Of a stretch of 25,118 bases of DNA, positions 3,868 to 20,700 are shown piece by piece (within the stretch, counting starts at the first letter, position 1; each line of letters starts with the position of its first letter). The notes under the pieces were generated by a model. The model saw nothing but the letters and a program-made list of their open reading frames with translations. It was not told the origin of the DNA and did not search any database. Location: the IMG/VR virus record IMGVR_UViG_3300010354_000591, positions 1 through 25,118 of that record; one strand, given 5' to 3'. The DNA comes from a virus. The position numbers and the translations under genes were made by a program.

Positions 3868-5474
3868 TGCAATATTTTTATGACGGGCAAATAAGAAGAT
3901 ATCTTCTACAAATAATAAGATTATTAAGTAATTTTGTTGTGAGATATGGAGACGGTACTTTGGTTAGAGTACCCGTAATGTATGGAGATCCTGATAGACA
4001 AGTAGCTCATATTGTCAATCAGAACAGCGAAAATACTACTGTGAGCGCACCTCGAATAGCAGTTTATATTACTGAATTAGAATTAGACACTTCTAGATTA
4101 GCTGATCCTAGCTTTGTAGGTAAGATGCACATTAGAGAAAGAGAATACGACGACCTAACTGGAGAATATACTAGCAGTCAAGGTAATACTTATACCGTAG
4201 AACGATTAATGCCGACTCCATTTAAATTATCAGTAAAGGTTGATATTTGGTCTACAAGTAATGATCAAAAATTACAAATTTTAGAACAATTACTAATGTT
4301 GTTTAACCCCAGTTTAGAAATTCAAACTACTGATAATTATATTGATTGGACCAGCTTGAGTGTAGTTGATTTAACTGCGGTAACGTATAGCAGTAGAGCC
4401 GTGCCTGTTGGGACCGGTACCGAAATTGATATAGCTACCCTGTCTCTTCAAACTCCAATTTATATCAGTCCGCCTGCTAAAGTTAAGAGACTTGGTGTAG
4501 TTACTAATATTATTACCAGTGTGCTAGGTTCTATCGATCAAGTCTCAGATTTTTATGTCGAAGGATTGGGTTCTGATAATAACAAGAGCGAAAGCGGTAC
4601 GGTAATTGGCAGTCTTTTATTCAGTATGAATACCAATTTGTTGTTTACTTTAGAAGTTACTAGTAATCAACTTAGATTAATTTCTAAAAATGAATATGTG
4701 AGTTGGTACAAAATTATAGAAATGAATCCTGACATTTATAAAGAAGGACTTACAAAGATATATCTACGACAGCCAGATGGTACTTATGTAGTAGGATATG
4801 TTGCGTTAAATCCGTTAGATGACACTATTATGACAGTTAATTGGGATCCTGACAGTTACCCTAGTAATAACTCCATTCCGTCTACATTTAGAAATCCCGG
4901 TCTGCTAGGATCTTTTGATGCCATAATTGATCCGCAAAAAACTAGACCTGATACAACCAATACTGGTACTAGATATTTAATACTTGAGGGTATAGGTGGT
5001 GGATACAGAGACACATTTACCGCAGAAAATAGTGTTCACAAAATTGCTACAGATTTTTTAAGACGTAAAGTAAATGATCATAAAATATTTGTTGACGGCG
5101 TTGAAGTAGGCAGTGGCGGCCCTAGTGAACCGTGGAATCCTGCTAACCCTGTTATTTACAATAGTAATTATTACATAACATTAGATGATGCTGCTCCTCC
5201 GGGTAGTGTGATAACCTACGAACTTTACATGAACGACGATGGTCCTGATGCATGGAAAAACAATGATGGCAGTGATTTTATTGCTGAAGCTAATGACATA
5301 GTAGAATGGAATGGCACAAAATGGAACGTAGTTTTTTCTGCTAGCGAAAGCGAAGACATGATGTTATATTTGACTAATTTATATACTGGTACACAGTACA
5401 AATGGAATGGTGTATATTGGAGTAAGAGTTTTGAAGGTGAATACGGTAAGGGAGACTGGCACCTTGGACTCTAA
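3867..5474 (+). CDS. gp15: Tail completion and sheath stabiliser gp15
   Basis: A 535-residue protein. The N-terminus (residues 1-50) reads MQYFYDGQIRRYLLQIIRLL, then a short SNF/VRYGD stretch and RVPVMYGDP. It aligns with T4 gp15 (YFYNSSFRRYATLMGDLFSN, RVPITYASK). The segment with RLMPTPFKLSVKVDIWS and ILEQLLMLFNPSL (about 110-150) matches the T4 region containing NPSPIKMIYELSIF and IVEQILPYFQP. gp15 caps the tail tube and sheath and contacts the gp13/gp14 neck. The protein is about twice the T4 length (272); the added C-terminal half ends in W-rich elements (VEWNGTKWNVVF and YKWNGVYW). It is coupled to gp14 by a one-base TAATG overlap, and its 3' end overlaps the Nudix gene start. Confidence 0.85.
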   Translation: MQYFYDGQIRRYLLQIIRLLSNFVVRYGDGTLVRVPVMYGDPDRQVAHIVNQNSENTTVSAPRIAVYITELELDTSRLADPSFVGKMHIREREYDDLTGEYTSSQGNTYTVERLMPTPFKLSVKVDIWSTSNDQKLQILEQLLMLFNPSLEIQTTDNYIDWTSLSVVDLTAVTYSSRAVPVGTGTEIDIATLSLQTPIYISPPAKVKRLGVVTNIITSVLGSIDQVSDFYVEGLGSDNNKSESGTVIGSLLFSMNTNLLFTLEVTSNQLRLISKNEYVSWYKIIEMNPDIYKEGLTKIYLRQPDGTYVVGYVALNPLDDTIMTVNWDPDSYPSNNSIPSTFRNPGLLGSFDAIIDPQKTRPDTTNTGTRYLILEGIGGGYRDTFTAENSVHKIATDFLRRKVNDHKIFVDGVEVGSGGPSEPWNPANPVIYNSNYYITLDDAAPPGSVITYELYMNDDGPDAWKNNDGSDFIAEANDIVEWNGTKWNVVFSASESEDMMLYLTNLYTGTQYKWNGVYWSKSFEGEYGKGDWHLGL

Positions 5475-5904
5475 AGAAAAAATTACCTGTAGTGGTGCGT
5501 TATTTTATGCCAAATCAACTCGACGTGTGCTGTTCATACAGAAATCTAATGGTAAGCATCAAGGAACATGGGGTATAGTGGGCGGCACTAACGAATCATT
5601 AGAAACACCGTGGCAGGGTCTTACTAGAGAAATTCAAGAAGAAATAGGATTTGTGCCTGAAATAATAAAAACTATACCAATTGAAACTTTTGTTAGCAAT
5701 GATAAAATTTTTAATTTTCACACATATCTTTGTATAATAGACAAAGAATTTATACCATGTCTAAGTAATGAACATAGCGGCTGGTCGTGGGCCAGTATAG
5801 ATGTTGCTCCAAAACCTTTACATCAAGGTTTAAGAAATAGTTTCAATAACAAAATTGTTAGAACCAAACTTGAAACTATTTTTGAAATTATTGAAATGTT
5901 TTAA
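5464..5904 (+). CDS. Nudix hydrolase
   Basis: A complete Nudix box, G-x5-E-x7-REUxEExGU, is visible as GTNESLE...REIQEEIGF, residues about 41-63 of a 146-residue protein. Nudix enzymes cleave nucleoside diphosphates linked to another group; the substrate here (dNTP, ADP-ribose, NADH or capped RNA) cannot be told. I place the start at the TTG at 5464. Homologues I recall begin just before ITCSGALFYA, and AAGGGAG lies about nine bases upstream. An in-frame ATG at 5407 would add 19 residues with no clear ribosome-binding site and a 68-base overlap with gp15. Even with TTG, the first 11 bases overlap the end of gp15, so expression is tied to the late structural operon. Its stop overlaps that of the converging 198-aa gene. 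Confidence 0.85.
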   Translation: MDSKEKITCSGALFYAKSTRRVLFIQKSNGKHQGTWGIVGGTNESLETPWQGLTREIQEEIGFVPEIIKTIPIETFVSNDKIFNFHTYLCIIDKEFIPCLSNEHSGWSWASIDVAPKPLHQGLRNSFNNKIVRTKLETIFEIIEMF

Positions 5905-6497
5905 GCGTAAACAGCATTTAACAAGAACCATAAACTACTAGTTACTGCTACATATTCTAGAGTAGTTCCTGCTGTTTGAGCAACTCCTGTGTTTACACCA
6001 GTTGTATTAATTTGTCCGCCAGTGTGTGGGTAAACAGTAATAGAGCTTCCTAATGCGTTTCTTATAATAATTCTTTCTCCGCCTACTGGTGTAGGCAATA
6101 AAACGCCGCCACTACCGCTGTTTACATTACTAATTTGTCTAGTTAAAAGAGTAGCAGTACCTTGTGTTGAACCTGCCGCTGCCACTGCTGTGTTATTACC
6201 AAAAGCTACATAACCGCCATATTGTCCTAATCTAATAAGCCCTGTGTCTGTAACTTCGATACTAGGTACTCCGGACACATCATTTACAGAAAAAATAGTT
6301 CCGGTAAGTGAATTAGTAATGCTGAATAACTGACCAGCAGATCCTTCAAAACTTAATGTTCCGTTATTTGTAGGATAAACACGTAGGGTGATATTTTGAG
6401 GACCCAAAGACGCATTAGCGCCGCTAAACACAACTTGAGGGTCGTTGGCTGATCCTATATTAGGTGTTATTACAATATTTTTATCTGAATTTGCCAT
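5901..6497 (-). CDS. Virion structural protein, fibre-like, 198 residues
   Basis: It opens MANSDKNIVITPNIGSANDP, then has short beta-rich repeats (GTLSFEGSAGQLFSITNSLT, GTIFSVNDVSGVPSIEV, GLIRLGQYGGYVAFGN). This is typical of small fibre or decoration proteins in marine T4-like phages. The C-terminal third (VLLPTPVGGERIIIRN, then SSITVYPHTGGQIN and a final WFLLNAVYA) resembles a fibre-tip domain with a conserved aromatic end. There are no cysteines, signal peptide or membrane segment. It ends the leftward fibre cassette but has its own late-type box (6516-6523) and a short A-rich leader, so it may be transcribed separately at higher level. It converges on the Nudix gene with overlapping stop codons. 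Receptor-binding, capsid decoration or short-fibre roles are all possible. Confidence 0.75.
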   Translation of the reverse strand: MANSDKNIVITPNIGSANDPQVVFSGANASLGPQNITLRVYPTNNGTLSFEGSAGQLFSITNSLTGTIFSVNDVSGVPSIEVTDTGLIRLGQYGGYVAFGNNTAVAAAGSTQGTATLLTRQISNVNSGSGGVLLPTPVGGERIIIRNALGSSITVYPHTGGQINTTGVNTGVAQTAGTTLEYVAVTSSLWFLLNAVYA

Positions 6498-6549: not shown

Positions 6550-6744
6550 TTAAACGCCCCATTTTTCTAAAGGACAAATCTTAAATTTATATGAAATTAC
6601 ATATTCTATAGGACACGCACATTGGTCGCAACTTGGTGCTCCTAATATTAAAGTTTGTTTTTCACAAGCATTGCATAATGCTAGTCTAGCTTGTCTTTCT
6701 TGATCGCTAGTAATAACGTTAAAATTTTCTACATCTTTAATCAT
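6550..6744 (-). CDS. Small cysteine-rich protein (DUF6171-like)
   Basis: A 64-residue protein with the pattern RL-x2-C24-x2-C27 ... C39-x2-C42-x-C44 ... YKFKIC57PLEKW. This matches the small zinc-ribbon-like family I know as DUF6171 (RLxxCxxCE...CxxCGC...CPxxKW), often found among phage tail-fibre genes and without an assigned role. The paired cysteines probably bind a metal. Its ATG overlaps the stop of the 412-aa adhesin (ATGA, 6741-6744), showing coupled translation. A related protein sits at 13103-13321, on the other side of five adhesin genes. A role as assembly or maturation helper for fibres is a guess from position only. Confidence 0.75.
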   Translation of the reverse strand: MIKDVENFNVITSDQERQARLALCNACEKQTLILGAPSCDQCACPIEYVISYKFKICPLEKWGV

Positions 6745-7979
6745 ATATTGAATATCCTTCTCATAGCATTAAAATTTTGTGCTATTTCGTTAGCAGATAG
6801 TTGTCTATTATAAATTTCAACTATGGGCATATTTCCGTTAAAATAATCATCAGCGTTATCGTGCCCTAATCCTATTCTTCCATTACTAGCAGGATTTGTC
6901 GATGGTATGTTTCCTATACTTCTACTTGTATACAACGAACCATTTTTATATATTTCAGATGTGCCATTAATTTTCCAAGTAAAACACATATTAGTCCAAG
7001 TGTTTAAAGGTATGACAGACGAAACACTGCCAAAAGCTAGATCATTATTACAACATGTTGAACCGTCTCCTATTCTAAAATAGAAAGTATCTGAGTATGG
7101 TCCTATCCAAAACCAATCTCCAGCATTCGGAACATCGTCTTCTCTATTAACAAAATAACCATTACCTCCATTATATCTTGTAGGATAAATCCAAAAATTC
7201 ATCGTTCCCTCAGTTTTGTTAAATGCTGTCGATAACGGGATAGTAATATAGCTAGGATTTGAATAAGTAAAATTAAAAGTATTATTGGCATTATACGTTA
7301 AATTGTTTACTGTAATTGTACTTTGACGTATAGTATCTATTAATGCCTGTGTTGTGCTTCTTGACCCGCTTGGTCCAACGAACGGGGCTGTCATTCCGCT
7401 AGTAGAACTAAAAAGCACCTGCGGGTTCTTCATTAAAAGATACCCAGTAGCTGCAAGTCTGCCTCCGCTGCACCCTCCCGGATACAATAACATTCTAAGA
7501 CCCGAAGTTGCTGTTGCGGCGTTACCGTTTATTTGAATTGTTTGCCAAACACCTAAATTTCCATTAGGTAATGCCGCAGAGCCGCCGACACCTGAACCTA
7601 AGTTTTCAAAATTGGCCATATAAGTGTCGCTTAATGATGTAACGTCCGGACTTAAATAATAATCAAATGTGAATGTTGGGAATTGTCCAGCGGGAATAGT
7701 AACATCATTGCCATGATAATGACAGCCGTTCGTTCCTAAATCATATCTATAAACAACATCGTCTGGCGTAATGGTGTACCCGCCGTATGTTCCCGAATAT
7801 ATTCTCTGAAAGATACCTGTGCCATTAACAGCGAAGCTTACGTTATTGTTACTATCGGGTACAGGAACTGCGAATTGATTAGTAATAGGTTGTCCCTTCC
7901 AAGATTTTGCTGTGTTATACATATTGTAATCAAAAATTAATCCTAAATTTACAGAATTAGGTCCTGCACTTATAGCCAT
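6741..7979 (-). CDS. LamG-domain tail adhesin (412 aa)
   Basis: Three parts are visible. Residues 1-40 carry the cassette signature (P-x-S-x4-GLIFDYNMYN...SWKG-P-TN). Residues about 45-205 form a beta-rich, CBM-like middle with FDYYLS and VWQTIQING strands. After a linker (TTQALIDTIRQ, then VNNLTYNANNTFNF), residues about 235-412 form a LamG/concanavalin-like jelly roll (GTMNFWIYPTRYNG, NTWTNMCFTWKING, EIYKNGSLYTSR) ending in VEIYNRQLSANEIAQNF and RRIFNI. LamG domains bind glycans or proteins, so a host-surface recognition role is likely. Last of six related genes; the stop overlaps the 64-aa gene by four bases. The start has GGAG, ten bases upstream. Confidence 0.8.
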   Translation of the reverse strand: MAISAGPNSVNLGLIFDYNMYNTAKSWKGQPITNQFAVPVPDSNNNVSFAVNGTGIFQRIYSGTYGGYTITPDDVVYRYDLGTNGCHYHGNDVTIPAGQFPTFTFDYYLSPDVTSLSDTYMANFENLGSGVGGSAALPNGNLGVWQTIQINGNAATATSGLRMLLYPGGCSGGRLAATGYLLMKNPQVLFSSTSGMTAPFVGPSGSRSTTQALIDTIRQSTITVNNLTYNANNTFNFTYSNPSYITIPLSTAFNKTEGTMNFWIYPTRYNGGNGYFVNREDDVPNAGDWFWIGPYSDTFYFRIGDGSTCCNNDLAFGSVSSVIPLNTWTNMCFTWKINGTSEIYKNGSLYTSRSIGNIPSTNPASNGRIGLGHDNADDYFNGNMPIVEIYNRQLSANEIAQNFNAMRRIFNI

Positions 7980-8000
7980 TTATTTCTCCGCTAACTTCAT

Positions 8001-9467
8001 TTAAATTCCAAATCTCATACGCTGAGAAGCAAAATTCTGTTGAACTTCCAAAGAACTCAACGCTCGATTATACACACTTACTGAATGAATTTTTCCAGTA
8101 AATGGTTCTGCACCGCCGTTAACATCTGCTCCTATTCTAAAATTATATGTTACAGGAATACTAGCTGATAATACTCCGGAATTTTGTTGTACTCCGTTTC
8201 TGTAAAGAATTACATTCCCAGACGAGTCACGTGTTGCTGCAAGATGATATGTACCAGCACCAATTGGTGCGCCAGGAAAGTATACAGCACCATTTATGTA
8301 AATTCCGTATCTTCCCGATACCCATAATGTACCAGACGTGCTACTTGTACCGTAGTTACCAAAAATTTCATCAGCAGTGGCTCCTGTAGTAGTATACCAG
8401 GATTCCACAGTAAAAGCTTGATTACCTGTGATAATATTGTTACTGTTAAGGTCTAGCCATGAAGCACCGTTAAAATTAAAAGTTCCATCTGTATTGTATG
8501 TTAAATTATTAGCAGTTAATGTGTAATTGCCTGTTAAATCAGTAACTACTTGTGTACTGCTTCTTGTAAAATTACTAGGCACGTACTCACTTGATCCTGA
8601 TCCTTGATAAATCATTATTTCAGAAAGATCCCAAGCAGATTGAGAAGGCATATTGTCGTTAAACCAATAAAAATATGTTGCTCCCGACTGACTTGTTGAA
8701 AATGTATAGCTAAATTTTTGCCAAGTCTTTCCTACTGTAAATGAAATACCAGTATATTCTCCGTTAGTCCATCTGTTAATAGATGCTCTTGTTCCTACAC
8801 AATTAGGTGTGGCGGCTTTATGATAAAAACTTATTGTGTATGTATTACCTGCTACAATGCTAGGTTCATTACCGTAGGCTAATCCGTCAGTGACACCGTC
8901 TGGTCTATACCAATGAATTCTCATACAATCGTGTGATCTGCCTTTGTATTGAAAACCGTTAGGAATAATCTGCTTTATTATTCCAGAATTAGGAAGATGT
9001 GGTGGTCCCCACCACATATTTGATACGCCGCTGCTAATTGGAACTCTATTATCTGTATTCAAATTAACCTGATGTTGAAAAGGATTAAGAGCGTCTTGTG
9101 TTGAATCATAAGCATAAAGAGAAAATTGATTTGCATCCCATCGTCTTACTAGATAATTTGTTCCGTTGGCTAATCCCCCGCCTGAAGTTTGAGGGGTCAT
9201 TACATCATATGTTCTTAATGGGTGTCCTGGACAAGTTACTATATTATTTGATACACCAGTTATAGTGCCAATAGAAAAATAAGTTCCACTACCGTATTGA
9301 TTTGTATTATACGTTCCCCATCCCGATGATACTGTTGGATATCCAGCATTGATACCGTTAGGTAAAATGTTTGTCAGTGGAGGTCCAGAATAACTACGAA
9401 TATTATTTTGATCGTAGCAGAATATTAGACCGCTAGTAACAATTCCGGGAGAACTAAAATATGCCAT
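8001..9467 (-). CDS. LamG-domain tail adhesin (488 aa)
   Basis: The start is set at the ATG of MAYFSSPGIVTSGLIFCYDQ. It aligns with the other adhesins and lies one base after the upstream stop, with GGA 8 bases upstream. An in-frame ATG 60 bases earlier would add a non-homologous segment inside the upstream gene. After the N-terminal signature, residues about 68-120 (GHPLRTYDVMTP ... NGTNYLVRRWDANQFSLY) resemble the HGF-x2-GD-x-V modules of the 2395-aa fibre. Residues about 205-300 look like a carbohydrate-binding jelly roll (NTYTISFYHKA, KTWQKFSYTFSTS). The linker contains NNLTYNTDGTFNFNG, and residues about 340-488 are LamG (AFTVESWYTT, TYHLAATRDSSGNVILYRNG) ending YNRALSSLEVQQNF...MRFGI. 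It has the longest insert of the six. Confidence 0.8.
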   Translation of the reverse strand: MAYFSSPGIVTSGLIFCYDQNNIRSYSGPPLTNILPNGINAGYPTVSSGWGTYNTNQYGSGTYFSIGTITGVSNNIVTCPGHPLRTYDVMTPQTSGGGLANGTNYLVRRWDANQFSLYAYDSTQDALNPFQHQVNLNTDNRVPISSGVSNMWWGPPHLPNSGIIKQIIPNGFQYKGRSHDCMRIHWYRPDGVTDGLAYGNEPSIVAGNTYTISFYHKAATPNCVGTRASINRWTNGEYTGISFTVGKTWQKFSYTFSTSQSGATYFYWFNDNMPSQSAWDLSEIMIYQGSGSSEYVPSNFTRSSTQVVTDLTGNYTLTANNLTYNTDGTFNFNGASWLDLNSNNIITGNQAFTVESWYTTTGATADEIFGNYGTSSTSGTLWVSGRYGIYINGAVYFPGAPIGAGTYHLAATRDSSGNVILYRNGVQQNSGVLSASIPVTYNFRIGADVNGGAEPFTGKIHSVSVYNRALSSLEVQQNFASQRMRFGI

Positions 9468-9468
9468 G

Positions 9469-10644
9469 TTAAATTCCGTATTCTCTTCGTTGATAATTAA
9501 ACAAATCCAACACATCATCGTTGTCAAATATTGTTCTATAAGTCCTAACTACTGCTACTCCGCCCGTGTCGCAAGTTCCAGCATATCCTGTGCCTATTTG
9601 TAAGTAATTAGCCTGTGGAGGCAATTGAATAGCACGTTGAGTCCAACTACCACTAGGACTTCCATTTAAATACCATTGTCCCGAAGTTAGATGCGGTCTT
9701 AAAACACACACAACATGATTCCAAGCATTATTATTTAATCCCCCCGAACTGCTATAATCGTATGCGTTGTAATTTCTGTAGCCGCTTATATCATTACCGG
9801 TTTCCCAAGTCATGGCAATTTCTTGTTCGTAGCTAGCATATATACTACCAGTCTTTTCAAACACTGTTCTTCTGTTAGGTTTTGTTTCATTATACAACCA
9901 CATCTCTATACTGGTTCCGTATCTATAATCTGTTTTTTGTGCGTCGGCAGCGCTGCTATACCAATACATAGAGCTGTTAAATCCAAAACAATCAATGCCT
10001 CCTTTAGAAGTATGATTGATGGTACCGGCATAATTCAAATTAATTGTATTGCCGGCAATATCATACCATCTACGATTAGGATTAGACATTGAATTAAATC
10101 TAGAAGCTGTATTACGTTGTTCAACTTGAATGCCATCTACCCAAAGAGTTACTCCATTTACGTAGCAATCTATTCTTGCTTGAATAAAGGCTGCGCTGGC
10201 ATTAGTAAATGTATATGTTCCTGTGACTCTAGTCCAATCTGTAGTGACGTTAAAGTAGGGTTGTCCATAAGTTATGTAATTTCCAGCACTATTGGCCTCA
10301 AATATTAGCATGGATGCTGTGACCGTGGTACTGGATTTGACCCAAAAACTCACAGTCCATGTTTGACCTTGTGCAGCAGGCGCTAGATTCCATGTAGTTG
10401 AGTTATAAGTTCCTATATATCCCGAAGTTCCTGATGTAACCATCTTCATAGGAGTATTGCCTACAGGACTTATCATTGTAGTATCTCTGCTCAGAGTCAT
10501 TTGATAGGCACCACCAGGTTGTGCCCAAGTAAAAATATCTAAAGGATATGGGTGTACGTTAGGACTCCAACTTTTAGGATTATTTACATCTACGCAAAAC
10601 GTTAAGCCTTCGGGTAGAATAGACGAATTTAAATTAATTGCCAT
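9469..10644 (-). CDS. LamG-domain tail adhesin (391 aa)
   Basis: N-terminal signature: MAINLNSSILPEGLTFCVDV and NNPKSW. The middle (about 75-185) has paired strands typical of a CBM-like jelly roll (QTWTVSFWVKSSTTVTASML, DWTRVTGTYTFTN, VTLWVDGIQVEQ). The C-terminal half is LamG-like (TSIEMWLYNETKPNRRTVFE, NAWNHVVCVLRPH, GQWYLNGSPSG). It ends in the most diverged copy of the shared tail, VVRTYRTIFDNDDVLDLFNY then REYGI, lacking the usual YNR. The start overlaps the upstream stop by one base (TAATG). Adhesin function is inferred from fold and company. Confidence 0.78.
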   Translation of the reverse strand: MAINLNSSILPEGLTFCVDVNNPKSWSPNVHPYPLDIFTWAQPGGAYQMTLSRDTTMISPVGNTPMKMVTSGTSGYIGTYNSTTWNLAPAAQGQTWTVSFWVKSSTTVTASMLIFEANSAGNYITYGQPYFNVTTDWTRVTGTYTFTNASAAFIQARIDCYVNGVTLWVDGIQVEQRNTASRFNSMSNPNRRWYDIAGNTINLNYAGTINHTSKGGIDCFGFNSSMYWYSSAADAQKTDYRYGTSIEMWLYNETKPNRRTVFEKTGSIYASYEQEIAMTWETGNDISGYRNYNAYDYSSSGGLNNNAWNHVVCVLRPHLTSGQWYLNGSPSGSWTQRAIQLPPQANYLQIGTGYAGTCDTGGVAVVRTYRTIFDNDDVLDLFNYQRREYGI

Positions 10645-11840
10645 TATCTTCCAAACCTTCCGCGATCAGCATTAAAATTTTGAGTTACTTCGGCGGCAGT
10701 CAGTGCTCGATTGTATACTCTTGATACGGCAATTTGTCCGTTAAATGGATAGCCACCACCACCGTATATTCCTACATATTGGTTAGTTTGTCCAGTAGGT
10801 AGAGTACCAGTATAACTAGTTTGTGTTATCTGAATGCCGTTAACATAAATTGTTTTTAATCCTGATCCAACAGTACATACAATATGATACCAACCGCCTG
10901 GAGCAATATATGTAGGGGCAAAAAAAGTTAAATCTTGTGGAGACAAACTCATTGTTCTAAAATAAAATGTTCCGTCGCTGTTATAAAAATTGCTATATTG
11001 TGTATTAACTTGACCTTTTTCAAACAGAAATCCATTTTGATAAACAGTAGAATTGGGTTTGTTCCAGCTTTCCATAGTAACAGCTTGAGAATCAAACACT
11101 GAGGAAGTTGATGACGTAATTGAACTGTTAGATCCATTAAAACTAAAAGTTCCATCGTTAGAATATGTTAAGTTATTAGCAGTCCATATGTTATAATTAG
11201 TAAGATCTAGTACAGCTTGACTAGTTGACCTTGTTCCGTTAACAAATCTACTTGGATACGTGCCTACTTCCATTTGTAAGTTTGTATAATAGCGTTTACC
11301 AGTGTAGTTATTATTTCCATAGCCTACATACCAGTTAAAGATATTACTGTAATCCGACGGTGTAGATATTGTCATATAGCAATATCTCCACCTTATTCCG
11401 CCTACAAATCTTGTTTCAATTACTGTTCCTATGTCTATTCCTGTAGCAATATGATTTCCAGATGCGCTAAAAGTTCTAGCATGAAACATTCTACTACCGT
11501 CAGCACAACTGTAATCAGGTGATTCACCGTACCAACCGCTCATAACATAAGTTGTATTAGAAACTAGTTCAGAACTTAGGTTAATTTGATATTCTGTATA
11601 AGGAGTTCCTGCAGTTTGTTCTAAAACCCATTGTGAATCTCCAGGATTGTCTGGAAATGAAATTACTGTATTAGTAGCATTACTACCGCTCTCTTGCGGC
11701 ATACCTGTGCCGCCTGCAAAATGTCCGTTAATAAAAAAATTTGTTGTTGGTTTTCCGAGGTAAGATTTTTTTGTGTTATACATATCATAACTAAAAATTA
11801 ATCCGTTTTGAGTAACAGTGGGTCCAAAATTTATACTCAT
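10644..11840 (-). CDS. LamG-domain tail adhesin (398 aa)
   Basis: It begins MSINFGPTVTQNGLIFSYDM followed by YNTKKSYLGKPTTN, the clearest form of the shared N-terminus and nearly the same as in the 412-aa protein. Residues about 85-200 form a CBM-like middle (NTTYVMSGWYGES, RWRYCYMTISTPSD). The linker TRSTSQAVLDLTNYNIWTAN and NLTYSNDGTFSFNGS is shared with the 412- and 488-aa proteins. LamG follows (VTMESWNKPNSTVYQNGFLF, GWYHIVCTVGSGLKTIYVNG), ending SRVYNRALTAAEVTQNFNAD and RGRFGR. The start overlaps the upstream stop as ATGA (11837-11840). Confidence 0.8.
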   Translation of the reverse strand: MSINFGPTVTQNGLIFSYDMYNTKKSYLGKPTTNFFINGHFAGGTGMPQESGSNATNTVISFPDNPGDSQWVLEQTAGTPYTEYQINLSSELVSNTTYVMSGWYGESPDYSCADGSRMFHARTFSASGNHIATGIDIGTVIETRFVGGIRWRYCYMTISTPSDYSNIFNWYVGYGNNNYTGKRYYTNLQMEVGTYPSRFVNGTRSTSQAVLDLTNYNIWTANNLTYSNDGTFSFNGSNSSITSSTSSVFDSQAVTMESWNKPNSTVYQNGFLFEKGQVNTQYSNFYNSDGTFYFRTMSLSPQDLTFFAPTYIAPGGWYHIVCTVGSGLKTIYVNGIQITQTSYTGTLPTGQTNQYVGIYGGGGYPFNGQIAVSRVYNRALTAAEVTQNFNADRGRFGR

Positions 11841-13102
11841 ATTCCGTACCTACGCCTTACTAAATTAAAATTTTGACTTACTTCATTAGCAGATAACACT
11901 CTGTTATAAATTCTAGCTACATAGAATTTGCCTTCAATACTAAATCCCGTATTTCCGCCCCATCCACTACCATATGGGTACAATGATCCAAATAGTGTTC
12001 CAAAATCGTTAGTTCCTGAAGAGCCGCCGCCGCCGCTCAACCCGTGATTAGTTGCCCCAACAAGGACTGCTCCGTTTTTATAAACACCGTATTGTGTAGG
12101 ATTCATCCACCATACCATATGAGTAGTTTGACCTGTACAAATAGACGAATATCCTAAGGCTGCACCGGACGCATTAGAATGTAATCCAAAACTTCCGTCT
12201 GTCATAGTATAGTTATACTGGCCGCTGCCATTCCATGGCCTACTTACTATGTACCCGCTAGTATCACTCGAATTAAAAACTAATTCTATCGATAACGATG
12301 AATTGCCATTAACTCCATTAGGACTCCAAGCGTTCCAATAGTTTCCGCCATAAGCATATATGTATTGGTTGCTTAAAAAATTTGGATTAAGAGTGATAGC
12401 ATTGTAATCTGAATTAAAAGTTCCGAGGCTGGGAGCATTAATTTCTACAGTTCGGTTATTAACAGAAGTGTCTAAGATAGATTGTGTATTAGCTCTAACA
12501 GTGTTAACCTCAGGCCAATATCTAGGATGTAGACCGCTGTAATTTCCTTGTAGGATAGCTACTTTAGCTACAGATAACTTATCGTTAAAATTTGAATAAT
12601 TATAGGTAAAAGAATGACAAGTACAATTAGTTGTTGTTGGTTGTGTATCAAAAGTGTTCCAAGCATAATACCACCCATTACCTAAGTAAGTTCGATTACT
12701 GTCAGAATGTATTCCGCTTTCTGTTAGATATCCGCTTGGGCCGTACTCATACCTATACATCCAGTTAGGATGTGTATAACCTGAATCATTTCTATATAAA
12801 ATGAGATAAGTGTAAGTTGTAGATCCACTAAAAAATGCTGTATTACCATAATTGGCCCAGTTTACACAACACCACGACGCACCAGTATTTTGATAGTTAC
12901 AGAAATTTACCAAAGTATCGCCCAGTGTTGGAATGTTTACTATTTCTGTTCCGCTGGTCAATACATAACCAGTACCAGATCCGGCGGTAATCCCCATAGT
13001 ATTAATTAAATTTCTTATCGACGGACCTTTATAAGACTTACTATTAAGAGTGTCTATATTAAATTGTAATCCGTCAGTTACTATAGAAGGTGATAAGGCC
13101 AT
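11837..13102 (-). CDS. LamG-domain tail adhesin (421 aa)
   Basis: N-terminal signature: MALSPSIVTDGLQFNIDTLN and SKSYKGPSIRN. The middle (about 85-195) is rich in aromatic residues and cysteines (WCCVNWANYGN, TYTYLILYRNDSGY, WYYAWNTFD). It is unlike the middles of its neighbours, which suggests exchange of this part. The C-terminal LamG region (SLSIELVFNSSDTSGYIVSR, GQTTHMVWWMNPTQYGVYKN) ends ARIYNRVLSANEVSQNFN then RRRYGI. The gene abuts the 72-aa gene with no gap. A glycan-binding role at the virion surface is the likely use; the target cannot be read from the sequence. Confidence 0.8.
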   Translation of the reverse strand: MALSPSIVTDGLQFNIDTLNSKSYKGPSIRNLINTMGITAGSGTGYVLTSGTEIVNIPTLGDTLVNFCNYQNTGASWCCVNWANYGNTAFFSGSTTYTYLILYRNDSGYTHPNWMYRYEYGPSGYLTESGIHSDSNRTYLGNGWYYAWNTFDTQPTTTNCTCHSFTYNYSNFNDKLSVAKVAILQGNYSGLHPRYWPEVNTVRANTQSILDTSVNNRTVEINAPSLGTFNSDYNAITLNPNFLSNQYIYAYGGNYWNAWSPNGVNGNSSLSIELVFNSSDTSGYIVSRPWNGSGQYNYTMTDGSFGLHSNASGAALGYSSICTGQTTHMVWWMNPTQYGVYKNGAVLVGATNHGLSGGGGSSGTNDFGTLFGSLYPYGSGWGGNTGFSIEGKFYVARIYNRVLSANEVSQNFNLVRRRYGI

Positions 13103-13321
13103 TTACCATTTCTCCAGCGGACATTGTTTAAATTTAAAAGTAATCATCATACTTATATTACAACCAGAACCTTTACATTTAGTCTGTTGATCTGTGTCAA
13201 TATAAAAATTTTCACAAGGTTTACATTTTTCAAGTCTATTATTAGATTCAGTTGCATCGCATACTACAGAATCTAACGAGTTTTCTTCTACGACAGTTGG
13301 TGCTGGATTAGGATTCATCAT
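13103..13321 (-). CDS. Small cysteine-rich protein (DUF6171-like)
   Basis: A 72-residue relative of the 64-aa protein at 6550. A variable N-terminal 28 residues are followed by RLEKC33KPC36E...C49KGSGC54...KFKQC67PLEKW. The spacing of the central pair (Cx4C instead of CxxCxC) differs from its partner, so metal binding may be altered. Two start codons are possible (MM); the first overlaps the upstream stop as ATGA (13318-13321), favouring it. The gene lies between the first and second adhesin genes in the transcript. Function unknown. Confidence 0.72.
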   Translation of the reverse strand: MMNPNPAPTVVEENSLDSVVCDATESNNRLEKCKPCENFYIDTDQQTKCKGSGCNISMMITFKFKQCPLEKW

Positions 13322-14037
13322 ATTCCGTACCTTTCTCTCTGCGCTGAAAAAATATTTTTTATTTCAGTATCATCTAATCGTCTATTATACATAGCTATGT
13401 AGGATATGTCACCCCAAAATTGATCTGGTCCGGCAGAATTATAAGCGCCTAGAGTTCTGAAGCCGCCTTTAAATCTTGCATTAGCACTGCTGTTAGATCC
13501 TCTTATTGTTTCTGGAGAATCATTATAAGCAAATGTGTAGTAGTTAAAATTATTTTGTGTGCTTACCCAACGCCATACTAGCATGTTCCATTGCGTAGTT
13601 CCATAACCGGGCAAACTCTGCTGGCTAAATCCCGAACTATTAAATCCGGTACCATTTACGTTATCATACATGCCTATTAACCAACCGCCAGCTTGTACAA
13701 TTACTTGATGGTCGTTATTAGACGTTTCTCCTCTAAATAGTGTTCTCCAATTTGATGAAGAATTCAGTATTCTTGTCCAGACTATAGCGGTAACTGTTCC
13801 TGAAAGAGGTATATCAGATCCGCTAGTAGTTACGGCACAACCAAACGATCCTCCAAAATTCATATATTTTGGTCCTGAACTGTTATAAGCTCCAGCATTG
13901 GTGAGAGTGAAATTATTTCCACTTCCGCTAATATCAGTCCACGATGTACCAGAACCTGGATAAGATCTAGTATTACCTGCGTCTAATAATAAAGCTAATC
14001 CGTCTGTAGATATTTCAGGTCCATAATAAATTGACAT
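13318..14037 (-). CDS. LamG-domain tail adhesin, short form (239 aa)
   Basis: The smallest of the six. The N-terminal signature MSIYYGPEISTDGLALLLDA and GNTRSYPGSG is joined directly to the linker-like SWTDISGSGNNFTLTNAG and then to a LamG domain, with no CBM-like middle. The domain shows VTAIVWTRILNSSSNWRTLF, NMLVWRWVSTQNNFNYYTFA and a final IAMYNRRLDDTEIKNIF with RERYGI. It is thus the minimal version of the architecture and shows that N-terminus plus LamG is the conserved unit. The start overlaps the stop of the 1207-aa fibre gene by one base (TAATG). A fibre-tip adhesin paired with the preceding fibre is plausible from order but unproven. Confidence 0.8.
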   Translation of the reverse strand: MSIYYGPEISTDGLALLLDAGNTRSYPGSGTSWTDISGSGNNFTLTNAGAYNSSGPKYMNFGGSFGCAVTTSGSDIPLSGTVTAIVWTRILNSSSNWRTLFRGETSNNDHQVIVQAGGWLIGMYDNVNGTGFNSSGFSQQSLPGYGTTQWNMLVWRWVSTQNNFNYYTFAYNDSPETIRGSNSSANARFKGGFRTLGAYNSAGPDQFWGDISYIAMYNRRLDDTEIKNIFSAQRERYGI

Positions 14038-17000
14038 TACTGGTCCTCAATCTCGACCTCTAATTTATCTACGTCCTTGCGTTCTCCGTAGATTACATAA
14101 AAGCAATCAATATTTTCACCAACTACTTCTACACGGTTGTCTTTGATTTCTCCGACATAGATTTCTTGCTTACGACCCTTAGGAGTAATGCTTACTGTGA
14201 TAGAATCAGGATCGACTAGCCCAGTCCAATAATCTGGTAATTCTATCACATTAGAATTCTTTAGGGTACCTCGAACATAAACACCGTTTTCTGGACCTTC
14301 TAAGCTGCCATATCGTAGCTTCATACCAGATTTAGTTGGGTGATCGATCAAGAAGCTTTTAGTTGTGGCAGCAAAGGCACCGTTGACTTTCAATCTATAA
14401 TTTGCATCGGCGGCCGTGTTCCATGGAAATCCTATCATTACTGTTGCTGCTGCTGCGTCATTTTGTATGAATAGAGGAGCCCATGCGTCTAAGTTAGTAG
14501 TGTGAGCACCGATATGAGCATATCCGTGAGCAGAACCTAAAACTGGTCGTTGACCGTTATTGTCTCCAAATGCTCCTGCGATCCAACCAGTGGCTGCTGC
14601 TGCAGCACCAGAATTGTATGCTGTAAAGTGATTTCTAGCATTACTACTATTAGTTCCTAAGAATCCCGCATTAGTAACTGCGCCAAATCTAGCAGCACCG
14701 TCTGCTGATCTAATTTCTGCTACTACTGTAGGTGTAGTATCACTAGAACCAGTTCCGCCTTCCCATGTCCAACCATATCCAGCAGCATCTTCAATATAGT
14801 TTCTCAAGCCCCAAGAAGTAACCAATGTACTTGAAGGTACTGTAATATTTCCTTTAGTACCTATACTTGTTTGACCAGCTTGTGCCATATAGGTTTGCCA
14901 CGTAGTATAAGAATCTGCATACCAACTTATACCATGAGTAGCGTTACTATCTCTACCAATTAGAATTCTAGGAAAATAACTTTGTGAATTAGAACTAATA
15001 CCACCAGTTACAACTAGTGAACCGGTAGTGCTCGAAGTAGCTGCGGTACCATGAGTATTAATTTGTGCGGATGTTGTAGTTGAACCACCTCCGTATAATC
15101 TTGTTGCTCCAGAATTAGTATTACCATAACCAATAAACATACCGTCATTGAAGGCAGATGAAGTATTATTTCTAATAACACGCACACTGGTATAAACGTC
15201 ATTAGTAGCAAAATCAAGACCATCAGCCCCGCCGGCTAATCCTGATCTAATTACTTCATTACATGTTATTGTTCCAGCGCCAGTAGTTGATCCAATATTA
15301 ATATTAGTTGTACTACCCGAAACTCCACTTGTACCTATGTTAATTGTTTTAGTAACGCCGTTAGCTGTAGCACCTGTGCCCAAGTTCAGTGTTTGAGCTG
15401 CTGTGCTTTGACCTATAGTTATTGCCCCAGTTGCCCCAGTTCCGCCTAATGTAAAAACTCCAGTAGTTTGTGCGCTGTATATTGTTACATTACCTGTTGT
15501 TGTAGTATTATATAAAGTGCTGTTAGTTCCAGCTGCGCTGACAATGTCACCACCTGTAACAGTTATATCACCATTAACAGTTAAATCTCCTTGATCTAAA
15601 TCAAAAATAAACTGATTAGTGCCGCCGCCTACAAATTGTATTTCGTTAGGCGTTGCTGCCCAACGTATGCCCCAAGCGTTTGCTGCTGTTCCGTGGCTAG
15701 GATAATAATCTTCAGAAATACCCCAGATATCGTGATTGTCGTCGCCAGTTTCTCTTGATATAAATCCGCCACCTAATATTGGTCTATTAGCTATAGCAGA
15801 AGGAAACGACGCTTGTCCGCTTACTGTTATAATAGGACTAGACAATGTGGTCGTCCCGCCGTTTGATCCGCCAATATTAACGTTGGTTGTAGAACTAGCT
15901 ACGCCGCCTGTGCCTATATTAACTGTTTTTGTAATAGAAGCAGCAGCAGGAGCAGTACCAAAATTATAAGTGCTAGCTGCAGTGCTAGCATTTCCTATGT
16001 TGATAGTTTGTGCGGCAGCAGCATTGCCAATGTTTAAACTAGTCGCAGCACCAAATGCGTTAACAGTAGTACTAGTTGTATTCCATAAATTAACAGTGGC
16101 TTGACTACCTACCACAGTGGGATTATTAATTGTAGCAGTACCACTGGTAGCTCCCATGTTAAGGGTAGTGGCAGCACCGGCAAAGTTTACAGTAGTACTA
16201 GTTGTATTCCATAAATTAACAGTGGCTTGACTACCTACCACAGTAGGATTATTGATTGTTGCTGTGCCACTGGTAGCACCAATATTAACTGCTGTACCTG
16301 CGCCGGCAAAGTTCACAGTAGTACTAGTTGTATTCCATAAATTAACAGTGGCTTGACTACCTACCACAGTAGGATTATTGATTGTTGCTGTGCCGCTAGT
16401 TGCTCCCATGTTAAGGGCAGTGGCAGCACCAGCAAAGTTTATTGTAGTAGCAGTAGCATTGGCTAAATTAAATGTAGCCGTACTTACTGTTAAGTCTCCT
16501 CCGTCGATATTAACGTCAAGGTCAACATCTAAATTATTTTTAATATTAGTTGTACCAGTAGCAGCGCCAATATTAACTGTTGTACCTGCACCGGCAAAGT
16601 TCACCGTAGTAGCTACTGTATTGTAGACATTTTGAGTTGTCTGACTACCCACTAGTGTTGGGTTATTGATTGTAGCAGTACCACTGGTAGCTCCCATATT
16701 AAGGGCAGTGGCAGCACCGGCAAAGTTCACCGTAGTAGCTACTGTATTGTAGACATTTTGAGTTGTCTGACTACCCACTAGTGTTGGATTATTGATCGTA
16801 GTAGTACCAGTAGTTGTTCCAATATTGACTGCTGTAGCTGCACCAAATAAATTTCCAGTTAATGAGTTTGTGTTAAACACTGACGCTGCGCCGGTATTGT
16901 TACTGACAATGGTAGGTGTTGGACCGTTCATGTTAAAAGTAACACTGGTTGCGTTGCTTTGAGTTATTACCGGATTATTAACAGTGACCGTGCCGGTAGA

Positions 17001-17660
17001 AGCACCAATATTGACTGCGGTAGCTGCTCCGAATAAATTACCTGTAGTTGCTACTGTATTAAAAACGTTAGCAGTAGTAACACCAGTATTTGTACGAATT
17101 GTTGCTGTACCTGTAGTAGCATTACCTCTTACTTCTAAGATGCTGTTTCCAGCTGTAGTTCCTAAATTTAAAACTGCTGCGGGTGCTCCTAGATTAGTCG
17201 TAGTAGCTGCGCCGCCAACGTTTAATGTTGTAGCATTTGCGTTAGCAAGATTAAATGTAGCTGTACTAACAGTTAAATCACCACCATCAATATTAACATC
17301 GCCATCTACATCTAAATTGTTATTGATATTAGTAGTGCCAGTGGCGGCCCCAATTTCCATGCTAGTAGCAGCGCCACCAAAATTAATTGTAGTGGCCACT
17401 GTGTTTAATAAATTAAACGTAGTTTGATCTGTACCAATTGTTCCAGTGCCACCACCTACTGTTAGGGTTCCCGAAAATGAACCGTTATTGCCGACAGATA
17501 AATCTGTGCCTATGTAGGCTTTTTTAGCTATTGCTGCACCACCTGCCGAATATAAACTAGCTGCGGTATCAGAACTAGATGTGGCATCTGTGGTGCCAAG
17601 TATTTGTGCCTCTTCCGTCACAACGAGGCCGTTTTTAACGACGAAATCTACTATTGCCAT
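14037..17660 (-). CDS. Repeat-built tail fibre protein (1207 aa)
   Basis: The protein opens MAIVDFVVKNGLVVTEEAQI. About residues 65-570 are short Thr/Asn/Gly-rich repeats of the form TVNFAGAGTAVNIGATSG-TATINNPT. This pattern is typical of beta-helical or triple-beta-spiral fibre shafts. Some are near-identical 42-residue units (see repeat entries). Middle parts are more varied and contain globular segments. Residues about 1100-1207 form a distinct domain: KSFLIDHPTKSGMKLRYGSL, then EGPENGVYVRGTL, LPDYWTGLVDPDSI and a charged end. I recall this C-terminal domain from many marine phage fibres; it may act in trimerisation or as a tip. A hairpin-containing leader with GGAGAGG precedes the ATG, and a late-type box lies at 17706-17713. 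It heads the coupled adhesin operon. Confidence 0.85.
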   Translation of the reverse strand: MAIVDFVVKNGLVVTEEAQILGTTDATSSSDTAASLYSAGGAAIAKKAYIGTDLSVGNNGSFSGTLTVGGGTGTIGTDQTTFNLLNTVATTINFGGAATSMEIGAATGTTNINNNLDVDGDVNIDGGDLTVSTATFNLANANATTLNVGGAATTTNLGAPAAVLNLGTTAGNSILEVRGNATTGTATIRTNTGVTTANVFNTVATTGNLFGAATAVNIGASTGTVTVNNPVITQSNATSVTFNMNGPTPTIVSNNTGAASVFNTNSLTGNLFGAATAVNIGTTTGTTTINNPTLVGSQTTQNVYNTVATTVNFAGAATALNMGATSGTATINNPTLVGSQTTQNVYNTVATTVNFAGAGTTVNIGAATGTTNIKNNLDVDLDVNIDGGDLTVSTATFNLANATATTINFAGAATALNMGATSGTATINNPTVVGSQATVNLWNTTSTTVNFAGAGTAVNIGATSGTATINNPTVVGSQATVNLWNTTSTTVNFAGAATTLNMGATSGTATINNPTVVGSQATVNLWNTTSTTVNAFGAATSLNIGNAAAAQTINIGNASTAASTYNFGTAPAAASITKTVNIGTGGVASSTTNVNIGGSNGGTTTLSSPIITVSGQASFPSAIANRPILGGGFISRETGDDNHDIWGISEDYYPSHGTAANAWGIRWAATPNEIQFVGGGTNQFIFDLDQGDLTVNGDITVTGGDIVSAAGTNSTLYNTTTTGNVTIYSAQTTGVFTLGGTGATGAITIGQSTAAQTLNLGTGATANGVTKTINIGTSGVSGSTTNINIGSTTGAGTITCNEVIRSGLAGGADGLDFATNDVYTSVRVIRNNTSSAFNDGMFIGYGNTNSGATRLYGGGSTTTSAQINTHGTAATSSTTGSLVVTGGISSNSQSYFPRILIGRDSNATHGISWYADSYTTWQTYMAQAGQTSIGTKGNITVPSSTLVTSWGLRNYIEDAAGYGWTWEGGTGSSDTTPTVVAEIRSADGAARFGAVTNAGFLGTNSSNARNHFTAYNSGAAAAATGWIAGAFGDNNGQRPVLGSAHGYAHIGAHTTNLDAWAPLFIQNDAAAATVMIGFPWNTAADANYRLKVNGAFAATTKSFLIDHPTKSGMKLRYGSLEGPENGVYVRGTLKNSNVIELPDYWTGLVDPDSITVSITPKGRKQEIYVGEIKDNRVEVVGENIDCFYVIYGERKDVDKLEVEIEDQ
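16075..16452 (-). repeat. Three near-identical 126-bp tandem units in the fibre gene
   Basis: Copies begin at 16075, 16201 and 16327 on the plus strand (each with GTTGTATTCCATAAATTAAC). The period of exactly 126 bases equals 42 codons, so the frame is kept. They encode repeats of the form NNPTVVGSQATVNLWN...NFAGA...GATSGTATI. The low divergence indicates recent duplication or gene conversion, and the copy number could change by recombination. Confidence 0.85.
16606..16857 (-). repeat. Two further 126-bp units of a second subtype
   Basis: Copies start at 16606 and 16732 (GTAGTAGCTACTGTATTGTA), again 126 bases apart, encoding NNPTLVGSQTTQNVYNTVAT-type units. They share the frame and general plan of the units at 16075-16452 but use other bases in the TTQNVYN segment. 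The second copy diverges toward its end. Confidence 0.75.
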
Positions 17661-17705: not shown

Positions 17706-17713
17706 TATTTATT
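17706..17713 (-). promoter_or_regulatory. Putative late promoter box for fibre/adhesin operon
   Basis: The minus strand reads AATAAATA, one mismatch from TATAAATA. A T4-like start near 17700 places the hairpin GTAGTTTAAAACTAC almost at the 5' end of the mRNA. The box overlaps the stop codon of the 2395-aa gene. Confidence 0.5.
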
Positions 17714-20700
17714 AGACTGTATTTAGATAACGAACTGTCCTTACTTTAATTGTATTACCTGCTGTAGCTTGTGCTAATAATCTAGCATTAGGAGCACTAA
17801 TGTCTGCGGTAAATGTAACTAAATTATTATTTCCTGTCTTAATAACTGCGAAATCTGTAATTGATGCAGTAGTACCATCATGAATCATTAATATTTCACT
17901 GACTTGATATTTGCCAACGTCTGTGCCGGCAGTACATTCAATCTGAATAGTAAATTTAGCACTACGATATGTAGCTGTAGCAAATGAACTTACTACTGTA
18001 GCTGCTGCTGATGTTATAGAAGCAGTTTCATGTGAAGTTATATGTAACAAATCATTAATAACAGCACTATTACCCACCTTAACGGTAGTTCCAGAAGAAC
18101 CAGTTGAACCAATATTGATAGTACCAGTTGTAGTACCAGTATAAAGATTTACAGTACCTGTGGTAACGTCGCTGGTTAAGTTGATTGTGCCTGCTGCCGT
18201 GCTGTTAATTTTAACAATATTTCCAGTTACAGCACCACCAAATGTCAATGTACTTGCAGCGCCCGTGGCAGCTGTAGCAACGTTAATTGTTCTAGCACTA
18301 GTTCCTGTGTTAGCTAAAGCCAGTGTTGTAGCAGCGCCAGCAAAATTAACTGTAGTAGCATTAGTGTTAAACACGTTAGCGATAGCCATTGCTGTAGTTA
18401 AATTTAGAGTAGTTGATCCACTAGATTCAGCAAGTGTCATTCTTGTTGTAACTGTTTGTGTAGTGTCACCAGTTGTACCAGTTGTACCAGTTTGGAAGTT
18501 AATTACACCACCTGTAGCGTTACCTGTACTTAATCCAGGGCGAACTGTTAAGGCTGCACCGGCAATGTTTGTTCCAACACCGTTTTCACCTTTAATAACA
18601 GATGCCACTGGTGTAGCACTTGCTTCACTTGAACCAATAGTTACGTTTCGATTTCTAATAACTAGTGTGGATTCTTTTACTATGGTTCCTGCTCTTGCTA
18701 AATTAGTTTGTGTTGTTGCTGAGGTAATTTTAAATGTAAATGATTTACTTAACAGTCCAGCACTAGTGATTGGCCATGTTCCGTTGATATTTGCCACGCC
18801 AGATGTAGCAACAGTAATTTGATCTCCAGTATTAAGACCTAGACTTTTACAAGTATCTGTAAATGCTATTGGAGCAGATGCAGCTATTATTCCTGTTAGA
18901 GCGGCACTTAAATAAATTCTACTATTGTCATAACCTGTTACATAAGTATTTGCTGGAATAAATGAACTTCCTTGAACTAACATACCTGGTCTAATTGTCA
19001 CTGGATAACCAGTGTATATTAAAAATGCCTGTCCAGAAGCACTTGCAGAACTTAGATTAATTCCCACAGCTCCAATATAAACATCACCGACTCCGGCTGT
19101 AGTAGTTACAGTAGAACCTGTATTTGAGTAGGTAAATGTAGTACTGTTTGTAACAGTTACCGCAGCATTTACAGTATTAAAATTACTGTCACTTGAACAT
19201 ACAATAGTAACAGTATCGCCGTTGGTTAATCCGTGATTTGCGGCTGTCACTATAGTTGCCACATTAGATCCGTTACGAGCCACTGTGGATATTGCTATGT
19301 TTATGCCAATATTAGCAGTTACTGATACTGTAGATGATCCGCCGGTTGTATAACTTTTAACATTAGTTGTTAAAGACTCAGTTGCGGCATTACTGCCTAT
19401 GTACACTGCCTCAGCGTCTCCACCAATATTAACTGCTCTAACACTGTTATTAAATAAACTTGCAGCTCCGGATGTACTAGACCCAAATTGATCGCCTGTT
19501 ATGTTAACGTATTCTGCTACAGTTAAACTAGAACTCCACTGTGGAGCTGATCCGGTGCTAGTCATTATAGTATTAGCAACACCGATACTTAACGGATTCA
19601 ATGTCTGAGCCGCACTAGCATACAACATATCGCCAATGCCATAGCTGGCAATATTTGTACCGCCTCGATTTACAGGCACATTGCTGGTTAAATTACTAGG
19701 ATTTAAAAAGTAACTTGAATCATATGTATCTAGTGTACCGGCATCAACAACACCTGCCTTAATTAAAACCTGGCCTGCTGTTAGACTGTCGCCAGTGCCT
19801 ACACTAAACTGAGTAGTGTTAAAACTAGCGACACCCATTGTTGAATATCCGGCGCTGCCTCCGGTTTTATCAACTTTAGTTACATCAAATGTTAAGTCTC
19901 CATAAAACGGACTCGAGCCACTACCGGTTAGAGATAACGCACTGCCGGCTGCTAGTTGAGCACTTTTAACAGCAGTTGACCATATAGAGTCGCCACGTAA
20001 AAATGTTGAACTATTGGCTGTTCCTGTGGCCAATCTTGATGTGGCAATAATACCAGATATGATATTACTAGCATCAATGTTAGTGGTAACTAGACTGTTC
20101 CAATTTGACCTTGTTGATGAGCTAGTATTAACTGTGCCAATAACCTTAATACTAGCTTTAACCACAGTGATATTTCCACTACCAGTAGCAGTTAAATTGC
20201 CTTCTCCTAATACAACTCCTCCTACGCTGCTTAAGGCATCAGCACGAAGAGGATGTACTGTAAAACTATTTGTAGTTACGCTACCTACAAACCAAAAAGT
20301 ATTCTGACCAATTTGAACTCCGCTTTCATATGGTAAATCTGATCCTACGATACGGAAAGCATCACCTGTGACAAATCCATGTCCCGGAACACTAAAAGTA
20401 TTATTGACAATGTCAACTGTTTTTCTTGTCAGTGTGTGACCGGCGCCCGTCGACGTAGTCAACGCTACAATTGTTGACAGTGTGTAATTAGTATATAATT
20501 CTAATGTTGTTGAATTTATTACTTTAGCGTAATAAACATTATTAGTAATAAGACCGCCAACTGCCGGATCTACTCCTGGATTATATTGTACTGGATCGCC
20601 TGAAGTAAATCCATGAGCTGCTAACGTGGTAATTCTATTCAATAGTGTATCTACACCGCCACCTGAGCCAGTAGCTGTAGCATCAAATGTAGCTGTAACT

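Follow-up and report, generated by a model that had tools for sequence, protein, structure and literature searches.

Six neighbouring genes of a viral genome encode proteins that resemble one another at both ends and differ in between, which raises the question of what the shared ends do, how the middles come to differ, and where on the particle such proteins would be carried. The genes lie in a viral record of 25,118 bases, the whole stretch of DNA analysed here and referred to as the window, which belongs to a T4-like phage with a contractile tail. They occupy positions 6741-14037 of the minus strand, between the gene for a 1207-aa fibre and an ORF for a 198-aa fibre-like protein (o198), in the orientation of the fibre genes. 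On one side of this array of LamG-unit genes are a neck protein and a tail-sheath stabiliser, and on the other the 1207-aa fibre and a 2395-aa fibre of the cyanophage type. Here, we dissect the array, its proteins and their relatives, which were gathered, together with relatives of the surrounding genomic backbone, by searches of IMG/VR.

The fibre operon starts with the gene for the 2395-aa long tail fibre (17712-24899, minus strand, as are all features listed in this paragraph), which matches phrog_5342, a tail fiber family, at 2.8e-161 and Synechococcus phage fibres in tblastn. The 1207-aa fibre (14037-17660) is repetitive (phrog_6002 and phrog_4527 repeats) and ends in a conserved C-terminal domain of 117 residues, f1207C (14037-14390; phrog_17490); its stop codon overlaps the start of the first unit gene by 1 nt (gap -1). 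That gene, g239 (13318-14037), encodes a bare LamG unit without a middle, identified by an AlphaFold2 (AF2) model and its fold matches in the PDB. Coupled to it is zn72 (13103-13321), a small Cys-rich protein (CxxC..C..CPLEKW; phrog_13558, 2.1e-8). The next units are g421 (11837-13102; phrog_8510), in which a middle is inserted at about residues 31-211, g398 (10644-11840), whose CBM-type middle has a homologue within KVP40 gp35, g391 (9469-10644), with a CBM_4_9 middle identified by Pfam, and g488 (8001-9467), with a middle of about 270 aa whose second half is CBM_4_9-like by Pfam and hhalign. The last unit gene, g412 (6741-7979), also carries a middle and is coupled to a second small Cys-rich gene, zn64 (6550-6744), and o198 (5901-6497) closes the slot. 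All six unit ORFs were confirmed, with lengths of 239, 421, 398, 391, 488 and 412 aa; the 488-aa form starts at an ATG at 9467, and a TTG further upstream would extend it to 508 aa. Intergenic distances from g239 through zn64 range from -4 to +21 nt.

The T4 late-promoter consensus TATAAATA does not occur in the window, where about four occurrences are expected by chance, and sigma-70-like sites are no more frequent there than chance predicts. At 13318-13332 and 11837-11851, the stretch that codes for the conserved C-terminal R-Y-G-I (AGGTACGGAATATGA) coincides with the expected position of the RBS of the next, overlapping gene. The adhesin slot is flanked by a nudix hydrolase gene (5407-5904) that overlaps the gene for the sheath stabiliser; its homologues account for 84 ORFs of the fetched loci. 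The array DNA has no relatives at the DNA level among named phages, and scans of viral contigs with g239 and with g488 as queries returned none.

This gene order bears on where the units would be carried. The best PHROG match of several units is phrog_8510, a 'virion structural protein' of the head and packaging category, as would be expected if the units decorated the capsid or neck in the manner of head fibres. We consider this rather unlikely, however, given that the unit genes follow those of two tail fibres and adjoin that of the tail-sheath stabiliser, and given their association, described below, with a C-terminal domain of fibres.

The two Cys-rich genes, like o198, had been missed in the preliminary description of the locus. 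Homologues of these proteins (phrog_13558, with a weak match to DUF6171) are encoded immediately after LamG units in various arrays (L007:1503-1817, L009:3568-3813, L143:13461-13775, L145:12955-13167 and L147:11566-11763), the homologue of zn64 in L147 being 56% identical and lying behind a relative of g412. A role for the Cys-rich proteins as an assembly partner of the units is possible.

The similarity of the six proteins at both ends, noted in the preliminary description along with their lengths, is well supported. The mean pairwise BLOSUM score of the N-terminal 34 residues is 40.9, compared with -16.9 +/- 2.1 for shuffled sequences (z 28), and that of the C-terminal 34 residues is 61.3, compared with -17.8 +/- 2.2 (z 36); a control window of equal size from the middle of the proteins gave a z of -0.5. 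Four of the six (g412, g488, g391 and g398) match Pfam LamG_3 (PF13385) above its curated cut-off of 27.6 bits, a profile that already takes in the first half of the C-terminal motif. The g239 protein reaches 20.8 bits, below that cut-off, and g421, which has no Pfam LamG_3 match, is linked to the family through phrog_8510 (2.8e-10) and a family HMM. AF2 models were obtained for g239 (pLDDT 77, pTM 0.80) and g398 (pLDDT 79, pTM 0.77). As regards the comparison of predicted N-termini proposed in the preliminary description, residues 14-19 form a high-confidence strand in both of these proteins, and both terminate in a strand and a helix, which in g239 are assigned by DSSP to residues 209-217 and 223-237, respectively. 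The best PDB matches of the two models are lectin-type domains of sialidases, clostridial neurotoxins and AbnA, as befits a ConA-like jelly-roll fold; those of g239 comprise the lectin-type domains of trans-sialidase and clostridial neurotoxins and the tailspike of cyanophage Pan3 (9vyh).

A survey of the wider family defines where the shared N-terminal motif sits and where the middle is inserted. The family HMM set consisted of 154 complete proteins in which a LamG unit is complete at the C-terminal end, and in 153 of them the C-terminal motif is the end of the protein. A clear N-terminal motif was detected with a narrow HMM in 117 of the 154, at the start of the chain in most standalone units. 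In 77 of these 117 the motif runs directly into LamG, with a distance near 0, and in the remaining 40, which include three multi-unit proteins and some entries from duplicate contigs, at least 150 aa lie between the two; since no protein has a distance of 20-140, insert length is bimodal. Middles are 150-290 residues long, and the insertion point, just past about residue 30, is constant. A separate domain is therefore inserted in a single loop of the beta-sandwich, and a twin of the g391 core in L143 lacks the insert. In two-unit proteins (L018 and L049) the whole N-LamG-C arrangement is repeated, with an N-terminal motif ahead of each LamG, and in p176 of Synechococcus phage S-PM2, a virion structural protein of 1058 aa, a unit that includes the motif occupies residues 840-1058.

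These findings most likely identify the shared ends as edge strands of one LamG/ConA-like jelly-roll rather than a docking tag, and the middle is most simply read as a nested domain that follows strand 1. As g239 has no other domain to which strand 14-19 could belong, an edge element of the lectin fold is the simplest assignment for that strand; from the known topology of the ConA-like fold, it would pair with the C-terminal strand. The preliminary description had instead taken the N-terminal 30 or so residues to be a common docking peptide and the middle plus LamG to be the exposed, variable part. The strong conservation of the motif and its location at the beginning of the chain in the majority of standalone units (117/154) agree with such a function, as does the weak similarity of the N segment where middles differ, which gives it the look of a separate piece. 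A separate common dock is nevertheless improbable: the motif also precedes the second LamG of two-unit proteins, lies at residue 840 in S-PM2 p176, and forms a strand of the single-domain g239 model, and on these grounds we reject docking as its main role. The N-terminal strand could also present a contact surface and in that way serve a dual role.

A candidate attachment site lies in the fibre encoded immediately upstream. The f1207C domain at its end has no match in Pfam, NCBIfam or the PDB; it belongs to PHROG 17490, a family of unknown function, and is present in at least 550 IMG/VR stretches. In the initial locus sets, which had mostly been selected for units, f1207C occurred only where units were present (seven loci). 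A scan with f1207C alone, blind to LamG, yielded 80 loci (L148-L227), and in all 80 the domain is the extreme C-terminus of its protein. LamG units lie downstream of it in 39 of the 61 non-redundant loci with enough downstream sequence; the first unit is within 60 nt in 31 of the 39, and in 29 the gap is 4 nt or less or the genes overlap. Among backbone relatives without f1207C, units are present in 6 of 40 (Fisher p 1.4e-6 against 39/61), the two sets of phages having been sampled differently. An upstream/downstream control, weak because long fibre genes occupy most of the upstream flanks, covered 10 loci with at least 2.5 kb of upstream sequence and gave eight occurrences of units downstream and two upstream. 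In Flavobacterium phage immuto, an f1207C fibre is followed by two adjacent units, both of which are annotated 'structural protein' in the deposited record. The f1207C domain is thus a candidate mounting platform for lectin units. No LamG units adjoin f1207C in four marine or lake cyanophage records, and most other fetched array loci contain no f1207C, so it is not the sole platform. Directly behind the f1207C fibres of L173 and L220 lie genes for proteins of 1259 aa (L173:5348-9127) and 1394 aa (L220:5351-9535) that start with sequences resembling the N-terminal motif (YYDMSNPK and FYFDPCNP) and in which a LamG unit was not detected.

Known fibre chaperones are likewise encoded immediately after a fibre gene (PMC7289586). 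Since the unit genes occupy this place, with the fibre stop codon overlapping the next start codon, their products might, instead of being adhesins, assist fibre assembly or cap the fibre in the manner of T4 gp38 or Tfa. To this reading we assign little probability, since up to 13 units with unrelated inserts of carbohydrate-binding type exceed what chaperoning would need, the immuto units are annotated as structural, and units elsewhere form the C-terminal part of large virion proteins.

The middles themselves differ in five of the six proteins, g239 having none. The CBM_4_9 match of g391 is above the cut-off (1.8e-7), and that of g488 is weak and just below it; g398 is tied to the CBM type only by a weak match to KVP40, most of its middle being homologous to residues 73-251 of gp35, the long-fibre hinge. 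The middles of g412 and g421 have no CBM match in Pfam. By hhalign, no relation was detected between the middles of g421 and g391, g398 and g391, g412 and g391, or g421 and g398. The earlier characterization of the middles as unrelated or absent therefore holds for most pairs compared and fails for g488 and g391, whose CBM parts are related (hhalign 87%); g398 and g488 are borderline (hhalign 45%).

In all five proteins that carry a middle, the middle and the LamG core have their nearest relatives in different proteins. The middle of g421 is 53% identical to that of L144|11158 and its core 73% identical to that of L143|14496. The g398 middle is 72% identical to that of L007|9908, where the cores are unlike (31% over 93 aa). 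For g391, the core matches the insert-less L143 unit at 60% identity, and the middle matches, at 64%, a middle that an unlike core carries in L144. The cores of g412 and L147|9956 share 76% identity, the middles of the two being unrelated, and the nucleotide match between the two genes starts within the LamG core and continues at 75% for 517 nt, revealing a natural hybrid. As the discordance between middle and core runs in both directions, unequal rates alone do not explain it. The swapping of middles among relatives that the preliminary description had suggested looking for is thus found, and its view of the middles as exchangeable modules in a variable adhesin slot is borne out by these discordant relatives, by the L147 hybrid and by the comparison of loci below. 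Its treatment of the middle plus LamG as the variable part needs amending, because both vary, and do so independently rather than as one block. Inheritance of the N-terminal strand together with the LamG core was looked for and not seen, N-terminal similarity being about equal for pairs that share a core and pairs that share a middle. This missing co-inheritance might count against a strand that is strictly intra-domain; an N segment that tracks neither partner probably fits the exchange of the whole 5' part of the gene.

The route of this exchange appears to lie between phages. No identical run longer than 15 nt connects the ends of different genes of the array, which speaks against recombination through identical ends inside it; with at most 15 identical bases in common, the ends offer little for recombination among its members to act on. 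The idea that the array is a reservoir for recombination is weakened accordingly as regards its own members, and exchange between phages is what is seen. Relatives with the same backbone differ in the number of units at this site, which is zero in L051, L055 and L104, three in L144, five in L066, six in L143 and in this window, and ten in L007; the largest arrays found elsewhere have 12 and 13 units (L020 and L145). The fibre of the 2395-aa type in L144 is 70% identical over 1171 aa. In L050, where the sheath stabiliser is 93% identical, g412, zn64 and o198 are retained, and a dN/dS of 0.04 between the two g412 genes indicates strong purifying selection.

The C-terminal domain of o198 corresponds to the C-terminus of the f1207-type fibre in the array-less loci L051, L055 and L104; with this domain fused to the fibre there, two alternative fibre ends exist at the locus. 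Large proteins in the same slot of L147 (12140-14578) and L066 (8754-13628) have glycine-rich domains (PF21722) and a LamG core further downstream, and in L147 a fibrinogen-C-like gene stands immediately ahead of the array.

That most units form a silent or weakly expressed reservoir, with one in use and the rest feeding recombination, would suit the large and variable copy number and the clear exchange of modules between phages, but is highly improbable for six open, tightly coupled genes whose last unit has a dN/dS of 0.04, within an array whose ends share no identical run above 15 nt and in view of the two adjacent units of immuto annotated as structural.

Taken together, these observations lead us to favour, as a probable though by no means certain account, an adhesin slot whose nested LamG units are made together with the fibre, are mounted at or near f1207C, and are exchanged between phages. 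The slot in the tail-fibre operon of this T4-like phage would hold six interchangeable lectin units, each a single jelly-roll whose first strand, and last strand plus helix, stand at the chain ends because the fold requires both. In five of them, a domain of carbohydrate-binding type in the loop past strand 1 would add a second candidate sugar-binding surface to that of LamG. Translated together with the upstream fibre, the units would most likely be attached at or near f1207C, the presumed fibre tip, so that one particle could carry several specificities. The slot would evolve as units are gained and lost and as foreign 5' parts, comprising first strand and middle, are joined to LamG cores, through exchange between phages and not between array neighbours. 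Gain, loss and swapping of modules probably tune which bacteria the phage grips. Several units may be displayed by one phage, a suggestion to which the two adjacent structural annotations in immuto and the low dN/dS of g412 lend indirect support. More tentatively, it is conceivable that aquatic T4-like phages in general possess a widespread, undescribed mode of display in which f1207C is a socket for variable, co-translated LamG lectins with swapped nested inserts, possibly aided by Cys-rich helpers.

For uncultured aquatic phages, little is known in most cases about which part of the particle decides the host. This locus offers a recognisable signature, an f1207C fibre followed by LamG units. 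The architecture, present in 0 to 13 copies, consists of a stable lectin framework in which one hot loop takes up other domains, predicted to bind sugars. It makes testable both the number of different adhesins per particle and the way in which phages alter sugar specificity without breaking the fold.

Several known systems share elements of this arrangement. In T-even phages, the distal fibre locus comprising the gp37 tip and gp38 was reportedly found by Tetart and colleagues to swap adhesin specificity. As at that locus, a conserved fibre C-terminus is followed here by one or more variable, recombining adhesin genes (39/61 loci); Pfam and PHROG scans detected no gp37 or gp38 homology in fibre or units. 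The present loci differ in having up to 13 adhesin genes rather than one, and their ends lack long identical recombination motifs.

LamG_3/ConA-like proteins have been noted with the tail fibres of jumbo phages (PMC7824862). Phage LamG_3 proteins (PF13385, PHROG 8510) share family, fold and association with fibres or virion parts with the units described here, which are distinguished by their multi-gene array, the second domain nested after strand 1, and the shuffling of nested domain against core. The nearest parallel to the nesting is the evolved Dit of siphophages, where loops of a galectin-type domain house carbohydrate-binding modules (PMC7291167). In both systems a beta-sandwich protein carries a further domain in one of its loops, a carbohydrate-binding module in the Dit and a candidate one here, the virion location being predicted for the present units. 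Here, however, the carrier is an array-encoded LamG unit rather than the baseplate Dit hexamer, the CBM identity applies to g391 and partly to g488, and Pfam and PHROG revealed no Dit homology in the units.

Ackermannviridae have been described as multi-adhesin phages with branched tailspikes (PMC11414711). Like the present phage, they encode several receptor-binding proteins side by side. Their tailspikes build the branched complex through dedicated domains, whereas the conserved N-terminus of the LamG units reads as part of the lectin fold. Domain mosaicism is reported to be widespread in phage receptor-binding proteins, and the portion of that report consulted contains no nested LamG/CBM case (PMC10684548). 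In the literature reached, we found no earlier description of arrays of LamG units with this nesting, of the independent shuffling of their parts, or of the association with f1207C. Finally, in the metaviromic islands of marine phages that govern host recognition, genes for lectin-like and carbohydrate-binding proteins are among the most variable between close relatives (PMC3909814); in the present locus, such a variable slot is resolved to its individual modules and to the site at which they are inserted.
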